NCBI GenBank assembly: GCA_022767445.1
Contig: JALENJ010000013.1
Coordinates: 1-64,000 of the forward strand
Reading direction: 5' to 3'
Source of the DNA: Erysipelotrichaceae bacterium
GTDB lineage: Bacteria; Bacillota_I; Bacilli_A; Erysipelotrichales; Erysipelotrichaceae
Length of the DNA: 64,000 nucleotides
Part shown: in pieces, positions 33,751-36,535 of the stretch
Numbering within the stretch: position 1 is the first letter of the stretch
Layout: every line of letters begins with the position of its first letter
The notes under the pieces: generated by a model
Seen by the model: the letters and a program-made list of their open reading frames with translations, nothing else
The model's database searches: none
Told to the model about the DNA's origin: nothing
Program-made: the position numbers and the translations under genes

Positions 33751-34671
33751 TTATCTATCTTTCATAATTGCAAGGACCATTGCGTTAATCAAAGCGGTAA
33801 TCGCTAGATGATTACCGACATAATAGTCCGCCAACAACATGCACGCATGTAAAGAGATTGGATCATCCTCAAAAAATTCATATAGATCCTGTTGGCGCAA
33901 GAAATAGTCTACTTCAAGATAATCATGAAACACCTGCTCAACAGGTATATTTAAATTCACAATGACTGCTGGTAGTAGGTAGTAAAGATAATCAACGTTA
34001 CGATCCCATTTACCGGATATCTGTAAAATAAACTTCATCGCTCTTTCCACTTTGTGTACTGCAGTACCATCACAAAGTGCCAATACATATGCAAGTCTTC
34101 TTGCGTAATCTGTTTTCAGTTTATACTCATTCGATAAAAGATCATTCATGATTACAAGCTCATCAACTACATCATCCTTGGTGGGTTTAAATAGAGCTAA
34201 AATACCAGCGTATATGACATCCTTATCATGTGTGAGTGAGCGATGTAGGTCTTTCATTTGATTGTAAATCGATAGAGCTTTGTAATAAATGCTTTGATAC
34301 TCTACTGGCTGAAATGTTGCGGCAGAGACAGCCAATGTTACAAGTCCAAGTGTATCTTCAAAGCTTCGTGAAAACTTACCTCGAAAGCTCTTTACGTGTG
34401 TGATAAATACATCTGGATCATATTCACTGACATACATCATCGCCGAAAAGACTCTGATAAGTGGGGTGTAATCTGGTCGATAGATATTCAATTCATTACG
34501 GATATACTTTACGCCCTCATCCAAGGCTGCTAAGTTAATATCCTGTTCATTGTTGTGAAAGATATTGATAATTGCGGCGATAGAATCATATCCCGAAAAG
34601 GCATATTCTCTTCGCAACAGCATAAAATCATTCGCAAACTTTTCACATCGTTCTAGTAAATACTCGTCCAT
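33751..34671 (-). CDS. DUF4003-like protein
   Basis: A 306-residue, mostly helical, cytoplasmic protein. Its pattern resembles DUF4003: an N-terminal KFANDFMLLRREYAF helix, YTPLIRVFSAMMYVSEYDPD, KALSIYNQMKDLHRSLTHDKD and LAYVLALCDG. No catalytic motif is visible and no role is known for the family. It lies directly upstream of sbcD in the same direction. The family call is from memory of the pattern and is moderate. Confidence 0.6.
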   Translation of the reverse strand: MDEYLLERCEKFANDFMLLRREYAFSGYDSIAAIINIFHNNEQDINLAALDEGVKYIRNELNIYRPDYTPLIRVFSAMMYVSEYDPDVFITHVKSFRGKFSRSFEDTLGLVTLAVSAATFQPVEYQSIYYKALSIYNQMKDLHRSLTHDKDVIYAGILALFKPTKDDVVDELVIMNDLLSNEYKLKTDYARRLAYVLALCDGTAVHKVERAMKFILQISGKWDRNVDYLYYLLPAVIVNLNIPVEQVFHDYLEVDYFLRQQDLYEFFEDDPISLHACMLLADYYVGNHLAITALINAMVLAIMKDR

Positions 34672-34750
34672 AACACATTACCTCTATCTAATATTGTATG
34701 TAAGTTAGAATGATCTCGCAATCCAAGACGTCATAAAAAGCAGAGAACAT

Positions 34751-34758
34751 ATTTCATT
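34751..34758. repeat. Left target-site duplication ATTTCATT
   Basis: The 8 bases are repeated exactly at 35191-35198, directly outside the terminal inverted repeats of the small element. Confidence 0.85.
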
Positions 34759-35190
34759 GGTATTGTAAATATTTGTAGGGTACCACATACAAATAGAACG
34801 CCTCCCCTTTCTTAGAATGGACTTAAATCACATTTTAAGAAAGGGGGCTTTTTACTATGAATGATTACGTGTTCATTACATCCATGTAGAACAGATAGAC
34901 CACTTAATTTACATTCTATAGTGAGCAATACAAATCAGTGTATTTTTAACGATATTGCTGTAGTTATCACGAAAACAGACATCTCTATACCCTTACACTA
35001 CTTAAGAGTTTTAGGTAATTATGACATGGTTTTTAATCAATATAATGACACTACTCATTTAGTGTTATGTCTATTAAACAATTGCTATTAACATAAAGTA
35101 CAGGGATTCTTTAAAGGTTCAAAAAATGGATAGCAGCTTATCACTACTACCCACCTTTAATCGGAAAACCCTACATTTATTTACAATACC
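34759..35190. mobile_element. MITE-like non-autonomous element, 432 bp
   Basis: The first 23 bases (34759-34781, beginning GGTATTGTAAATA) and the last 23 (35168-35190) are inverted copies with two mismatches. The element is bounded by an exact 8-bp duplication. This is a transposed unit. No ORF inside looks like a transposase: the 76-codon frame at 34861-35091 has no family features or ribosome binding site. It is therefore a MITE or an internally deleted IS. Eight-base duplications are usual for the ISL3 group and occur in some others, so the family is only suggested. It fills the gap between the DUF4003-like and M18 genes and holds a strong hairpin. Confidence 0.8.
34804..34855 (+). terminator. 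Hairpin inside the MITE-like element
   Basis: CCCCTTTCTTA plus AATG (about 34804-34819) pairs with CATT plus TTAAGAAAGGGG (about 34832-34848), followed by CTTTTTA. It would stop transcription entering from the left. Confidence 0.65.
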
Positions 35191-35198
35191 ATTTCATT
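35191..35198. repeat. Right target-site duplication ATTTCATT
   Basis: Exact copy of 34751-34758, next to the right inverted repeat. Confidence 0.85.
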
Positions 35199-35212
35199 TC
35201 CCTGCTTAGCTA

Positions 35213-36523
35213 CTATTTCAAAGTGAATGTTCCTTCTCCCTCATCCTTTAGAGATAGCGAGAAGAAGTGCGATAGTGCCTCTACAAGATACTCTGTATCT
35301 TTGGCACCTGCTGTTTCATAAGATGAATGCATCGCAAGTTGTGCTAATCCAATATCAACTGTATTGAGTGATACATGTGCATTGGAGATATTACCTAGTG
35401 TGGATCCACCTAATACATCAGAACGATTGGTGAATGTTTGTACTGGTACATTGACCTCTTGGCAAATATCCTTAAATACTGCAGCGGATACTGCGTCTGT
35501 TGTATATTTTTGGTTTGCGTTGTACTTGATCACAATACCTTGGTTCATCTTTGGACGATTGATAGGATCAGCCTTTTCCACATGGTTTGGATGTACTGCA
35601 TGTGCATTATCCGCAGAAACCATAAAACTTGAAGCGATTGCCTGTTTGTTTTCTTCTAGGCTCTTGCCTAAAGATAGAGCGATACGCTCTAGTGTATCCT
35701 GTAGGAATGTAGAATCAGCACCTTGTTTTGTGCCTGAGCCAACTTCCTCATTATCAAATATCGCAAGGACTGGAATACTCTCACTATCATTAGCCCCCAA
35801 GAATCCATATAGACTACCAAAAGCGCATTGTAAATCATCTAGATGTCCTGCGGAGATAAACTCATTCTGTGCACCCCAAACAGTACCTCTTCCACGTGTG
35901 TATAGATATAGGTCATGACTGAGGATATCCTCTTTCTTTACACCAACGGACTCTGCCACAATCTCCATGAACTTACCCTTGGCATCCTCGCCACCAAACA
36001 CCGGTAACATATCTACCTGGGCATTATAGCTAGCTTTGGAGTTGGCTTCACGATTCATATGAATCGCAAGATTTGGTATTAACAACAAGTCTCTATCCAC
36101 CATAACAAGTTTTGTAATAAATTTACCGTCTTGTTTGATTACCACTCTACCCGCAACAGATAAAGGACGATCAAACCATGGTGCACATAACATACCACCA
36201 TACTTTTCAACATTGAGCTTTATAACACCTTGTTCTACAATTTCAGGATTTTCTTTAATCTTAAATGTAGGAGAATCACTGTGTGCCGCCGCAATCATAT
36301 ACCCTATATAGGATGTTGTAGGTACACGGAATGCGATAATACTGGATTGATTGCGGATTGTAAAGTATCTACCATCCTTCTCAAGATTCCACTTGCTCGC
36401 CTCACTGAGTTCCTTATAGCCGCCCTTGATCAACGTCTTTTTAATTTCATCAATTGCGTGGAAACAAGTAGGACTCTTCTGTAAAAAATCTAGTAACTTC
36501 TCATTGATTTCACTCATCTTCAT
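35213..36523 (-). CDS. M18-family aminopeptidase
   Basis: About 436 residues of the M18 zinc aminopeptidase family. Zinc-site motifs are AAHSDSPTFK (His, Asp), SAGHLDDLQCAFG (Asp), FDNEEVGSGTKQGA (Glu pair), VSADNAHAVHPNH (Asp) and a late LAMHSSYE (His). Such enzymes remove acidic or hydrophobic N-terminal residues from peptides in the cytosol and form large oligomers. Three start codons are close; ATG 36523 is best spaced from AAGGAAG. It follows an M29 aminopeptidase gene by a few bases, so the two are cotranscribed. Confidence 0.93.
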   Translation of the reverse strand: MKMSEINEKLLDFLQKSPTCFHAIDEIKKTLIKGGYKELSEASKWNLEKDGRYFTIRNQSSIIAFRVPTTSYIGYMIAAAHSDSPTFKIKENPEIVEQGVIKLNVEKYGGMLCAPWFDRPLSVAGRVVIKQDGKFITKLVMVDRDLLLIPNLAIHMNREANSKASYNAQVDMLPVFGGEDAKGKFMEIVAESVGVKKEDILSHDLYLYTRGRGTVWGAQNEFISAGHLDDLQCAFGSLYGFLGANDSESIPVLAIFDNEEVGSGTKQGADSTFLQDTLERIALSLGKSLEENKQAIASSFMVSADNAHAVHPNHVEKADPINRPKMNQGIVIKYNANQKYTTDAVSAAVFKDICQEVNVPVQTFTNRSDVLGGSTLGNISNAHVSLNTVDIGLAQLAMHSSYETAGAKDTEYLVEALSHFFSLSLKDEGEGTFTLK

Positions 36524-36535
36524 CACCATTCTTCC

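Follow-up and report, generated by a model that had tools for sequence, protein, structure and literature searches.

The window, a 64,000-nucleotide stretch of an Erysipelotrichaceae genome, carries an M18 aminopeptidase gene (35213..36529) and, downstream of it, a DUF4003 gene (33751..34671), both on the minus strand. A 432-bp element occupies the space between them (34759..35190, plus strand). The promoter-like site of the DUF4003 gene (34721-34693, minus strand) lies outside the element, and a similar site is present in G059, a sister species of the same genus. The left terminal inverted repeat of the element, GGTATTGTAAATATTTGTAGGGT (34759..34781, plus strand), and the right terminal inverted repeat (35168..35190, minus strand; reverse complement GGTATTGTAAATAAATGTAGGGT) agree at 21/23 positions. 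An exact 8-bp duplication, ATTTCATT, borders the element on the left (34751..34758) and on the right (35191..35198). At the base composition of the window, chance would produce ends agreeing at 21/23 or more positions together with an exact 8-bp repeat within 1 kb about 2e-7 times per window. No transposase is encoded within 34759-35190, where the sole ORF of at least 60 aa is a 76-aa frame (34861-35091, plus strand). The earlier note on this DNA had described a MITE-like element of this size with these inverted ends, this duplication and no transposase inside, and each of these features was reproduced from the sequence.

The genome assembly that contains the window (1.91 Mb, 74 contigs, 97% complete) holds two further full copies, C26:7791-8284 on the minus strand (494 bp) and C35:32362-32908 (547 bp). 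The three copies are ~94% identical across their common part, and they are short, have inverted ends, lack a transposase and are dispersed over three contigs. Six of the eight duplication bases agree in the flanks of the C26 copy, and the flanks of the C35 copy carry no target duplication. The copies differ in the number of modules, TGTAAATAWTTGTAGGGT, that make up their ends. The C35 copy has three modules per side, the C26 copy has three on the left and one on the right, and the window copy has one on each side, the left one fused to GGTAT. Where an end is shortened, the outermost GGTAT abuts the innermost module. Comparison of the copies suggests that the modules were probably lost in separate recombination or slippage events, since the switch points vary among them. 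No copies were found in the phages, plasmids or viral contigs searched, and the exact module pattern gave 13 single matches in public genome contigs from unrelated taxa, which were taken as chance. Two solitary sequences were also recorded. A lone 20/23 match to the element end (C17:23762-23784 of the same assembly) directly follows the terminator behind the apparent 3' end of a tmRNA or tRNA-like gene (AGCTCCACTA...), and may be either a chance match or what is left of an end that decayed at another terminator. A 55-bp remnant in another genome (G062:C41:2533-2587) consists solely of the two facing ends of this ISL3 group and lies directly 3' of a strong terminator.

The parent of the element was sought through its ends. 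When 273 genomes of the family were searched for the end pattern, it turned up in three more genomes of the genus and, as one single doubtful match, in a genome of a different genus (G174). Sampling 395 genomes across the class added no other genus with these ends. A 1659-bp element of the same genus (G008:C51:2739-4397) has GGTATTGTAAATAAACGTAGGGT ends, one long ORF and an exact bordering 8-bp duplication, AGCCTGCG. Its protein matches Pfam PF01610 (ISL3 transposase domain, 6.4e-45) and PF14690 (ISL3 zinc ribbon). Each side of this element has three modules, spaced 30 and 32 at the left end and 32 and 24 at the right end. The C35 copy has nearly the same spacing, and the values for the two taken together are 30 and 32 (left) and 32 and 23 or 24 (right). 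The C35 copy is 74% identical to the left end of the G008 element over ~168-172 bp, including a hairpin and extending up to the start codon, and 80% identical to its last 81 bp. The target duplication in a further genome, G007, is also 8 bp (AGAGAAAA). The shared ends, the 8-bp duplication and the internal homology to an autonomous element place the 432-bp element in the ISL3 family. It resembles other members of that family (PF01610 DDE_Tnp_ISL3, PF14690 Zn_ribbon_ISL3) in ends that start with GG and contain GTAGGGT, in the length of the duplication and in the leader hairpin before the transposase start. It differs in lacking a transposase, and its parent group differs in having three tandem end modules per side, an arrangement for which no description was found in the papers searched. 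The end motif is apparently also tandemly repeated in other ISL3 elements of the genus (L063, L072, L081, L087 and the G059 ISL3 copies L088-L099), for example as TAAAATCGCGTAGGGT...TTAAAATTCCGTAGGGT in L081, so ends with several modules may be more widespread among ISL3 elements. The assembly with the window contains no intact cognate ISL3 transposase with these ends; its best intact ISL3 protein shares 32% identity with that of G008, and an ISL3 fragment of ~77 residues shares 56%. The G007 copy of the parent-type IS is interrupted by contig ends, and that bin lacks its core; failure to find an element in a draft assembly therefore carries little weight.

The site that the element entered was reconstructed from its flanks. 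Removal of the element and one duplication leaves AAGCAGGGAAATGAAATATGTTCTCTGCTT TTTATG, with the insertion point in the loop. The sister species G059 retains the gene order M18 / DUF4003 / SbcD without the element, its M18 protein is 85% identical, and the corresponding place holds a compact hairpin and T-run, AACAGGTCTTCAGTGGTGAGGGCTTGTT TTTTGG. At this locus of G059 (G059:C1:2307305-2309245) the DUF4003 gene is present in two tandem copies beside M18 and sbcCD. The reconstructed flanks and the G059 hairpin together show that the element split the intrinsic terminator of the M18 gene, leaving the 5' arm at 35198..35207 and the pairing 3' arm at 34738..34747, which is followed by the T-run on the minus strand. 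The earlier claim that the element had moved to this place is supported. The checks proposed with that claim also gave positive answers: the search for further copies, run in the element's own genome, raised the count to three (432, 494 and 547 bp), the syntenic G059 locus is an empty site with an intrinsic terminator, and the autonomous IS with the same ends is the 1659-bp ISL3 element of G008. The element has much in common with the bacterial MITEs reviewed in PMC10969869, which are <600 bp, non-coding and intergenic with inverted ends and a target duplication, and it differs from them in its low copy number (3), in carrying a decayed IS66 end and in its position inside a terminator hairpin.

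Other insertions also looked terminator-like, and reconstructed target sites were therefore scored with a terminator predictor against intergenic positions of the same genomes. Depending on the cut-off, a loose predictor flagged 22-57% of the intergenic positions; it was replaced by a stricter one, which was tightened after the own-family and G059 ISL3 sites had first been seen and was frozen thereafter. Control rates were 11.6-26.0% with no margin and 13.1-29.5% within 3 nt. For the element's own family, the distance to a predicted terminator is at most 1 nt at 5/6 full sites (13-30% of control positions within 3 nt; p ~0.002), and counting two G007 half-sites that could not be joined (contigs C13 and C48) as misses gives 5/8 (p ~0.02). 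Other ISL3 copies in G059 lie within 8 nt of a predicted terminator at 6/9 sites (control 15%; p ~7e-4). Three further ISL3 sites of the genus, chosen by their ends and duplication only, were scored with the frozen predictor and all lie within 4 nt (3/3); most other ISL3 loci lacked a clean end-plus-duplication pair and were left out. Statistically, ISL3 insertions in the genus favor intrinsic terminators. The frozen predictor also placed 6/7 distinct plasmid sites of E. faecium ISL3 within 3 nt of a terminator, as a raw count with no E. faecium control. A published case from this species, E. faecium OI25, has an ISL3-linked insertion with an 8-bp duplication about halfway through the rho-independent terminator of an rRNA operon (PMC11702846). 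It is like the window element in its duplication and in its terminator target and unlike it in being part of a larger rearrangement with vanHAX, and its authors treated the terminator insertion as a single case. Text searches of the open-access literature, with subscription papers and ISfinder outside their scope, returned no paper that states an ISL3 terminator preference as a rule.

An ISL3 element of Ligilactobacillus salivarius has 4/13 sites within 3 nt of a terminator versus a control of 18.5%. One of its copies (L143) separates two pieces of a DegV gene. Several ISL3 copies on the 530-kb L. salivarius plasmid CP104730.1 recur at a constant 242,652-bp offset, each time with identical flanks, and the record looks like a partial plasmid dimer or an assembly duplication. 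The enrichment for the genus and for E. faecium and the small effect in L. salivarius suggest that the preference likely holds for part of the ISL3 family. Two explanations for the association were weighed. We see roughly even odds that ISL3 transposases of this genus and of some others, for example those of ISEfa5/ISEfa11, actively pick intrinsic terminators through hairpin-forming DNA or the T-run, with the tandem modules serving as several transposase sites and copies decaying by collapse between modules. The association could instead reflect survivor bias, in which intergenic insertions are tolerated and terminators happen to be common there. The L. salivarius counts and the small samples fit survivor bias, but the control is itself already intergenic, the enrichment recurs in the own family, the G059 copies, the fresh genus sites and E. 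faecium, none of the four IS66 insertions in G059 is at a terminator (0/4), and several ISL3 insertions lie within the hairpin loop and break the terminator. Survivor bias is accordingly a possible but unlikely account.

The element contains a strong hairpin (34800..34848, plus strand) followed by a T-run (34849..34853, plus strand). The hairpin with its flanks (34795-34862, plus strand) has a folding energy of -25.5 kcal/mol and z = -5.65; a simple terminator scan listed no terminator within the element stretch. In the intact G008 element the hairpin immediately precedes the transposase ATG and bears the ribosome-binding site AAAGGAGG in its 3' arm, and the 3' arm of the window hairpin carries a degraded form of this site. 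A relic of the transposase ORF start, ATGAATGATTAC... (34857..34889, plus strand; ATGAGTGATTCT... in the intact element), follows and stops after 10 codons. These sequence correspondences identify the "terminator hairpin" of the element as a leader hairpin inherited from the ISL3 transposase gene that was lost, kept together with the start codon. Published work on Firmicutes describes terminators that precede ISL3 transposases as IS-borne 5' devices that block transposase expression when the IS sits in a transcribed region (PMC2965389). The window hairpin resembles these "mobile attenuators" (Naville and Gautheret 2010, PMC2965389) in the hairpin and T-run directly upstream of the ISL3 transposase start, and differs in persisting in a derivative without a transposase.

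The earlier note had also proposed that the hairpin can insulate the neighboring genes, and an insulating role could explain why the element was retained. The hairpin and T-run are real and would suit such an exapted terminator, and in an equilibrium fold of the minus-strand transcript the inverted ends are predicted to pair and to bring the split arms of the peptidase terminator back into register (pair probability 0.80-1.00), although a 541-nt equilibrium fold tells little about co-transcriptional termination. Insulation is nonetheless unsupported, since the T-run serves the plus strand and both flanking genes are on the minus strand. The hairpin comes from the transposase leader in all copies, a terminator already stood at the place of insertion, and the insertion split the peptidase gene's own terminator and added none. 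We regard retention for insulation as improbable.

The middle of the element is of separate origin. A stretch of 205 bp (34862..35066, minus strand) is 72% identical to the tnpA start and upstream DNA of the G059 IS66 copies. The element also contains a degenerate IS66 terminus, ATTTAGTGTTATG (35057..35069, minus strand; intact ATTTAGCGTTTAC). Because this terminus lies inside the MITE, the IS66 piece is a passenger. IS66 parentage had first been suspected from the internal match and was dropped once the IS66 ends had been read, as IS66-type ends are not at the element termini. That the element is an IS66-family MITE is very improbable despite the internal identity and the 8-bp duplications that IS66 also makes (exact in 2/4 G059 copies), because intact IS66 copies end in GTAAACGCTAAA / TTTAGCGTTTAC, the matching terminus is internal and ~120 bp from the element end, the outer ends match ISL3, and no IS66 transposase match was detected in the own genome. 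A separate IS66 remnant with a decayed end is present there (C48:12365-12437), and IS66 seems to have been lost from this genome.

The element at 34759-35190 is most consistently read as an ISL3-family MITE in which the transposase gene is nearly gone and a decayed IS66 end stands in its place, which was moved in trans and inserted into the loop of the M18 terminator (probability about 0.93). Its sequence shows that an ISL3 element lost almost the whole transposase gene and gained the IS66 end instead, and that the ends bound by the transposase and the 5' leader with its read-through-blocking hairpin were retained. An ISL3 transposase acting in trans would then have moved the 432-bp element, and the empty-site reconstruction and the sister-species locus show that it entered the loop of the peptidase terminator and duplicated 8 bp there. 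The bias toward terminators in the genus may arise because the target complex favors the T-run or a hairpin or cruciform structure in the DNA.

The 432-bp element itself is ordinary and belongs to a known kind, the ISL3-derived MITE, and in this case the kind of parent, the empty site and the source of the hairpin are all identified. Beyond this locus, intrinsic terminators may be a structurally preferred target for part of the ISL3 family. Such a preference, if true, would explain how ISL3 elements spread without killing genes and how fused transcription units such as that of the E. faecium vanHAX case can arise, and would show where new ISL3 insertions should be sought.
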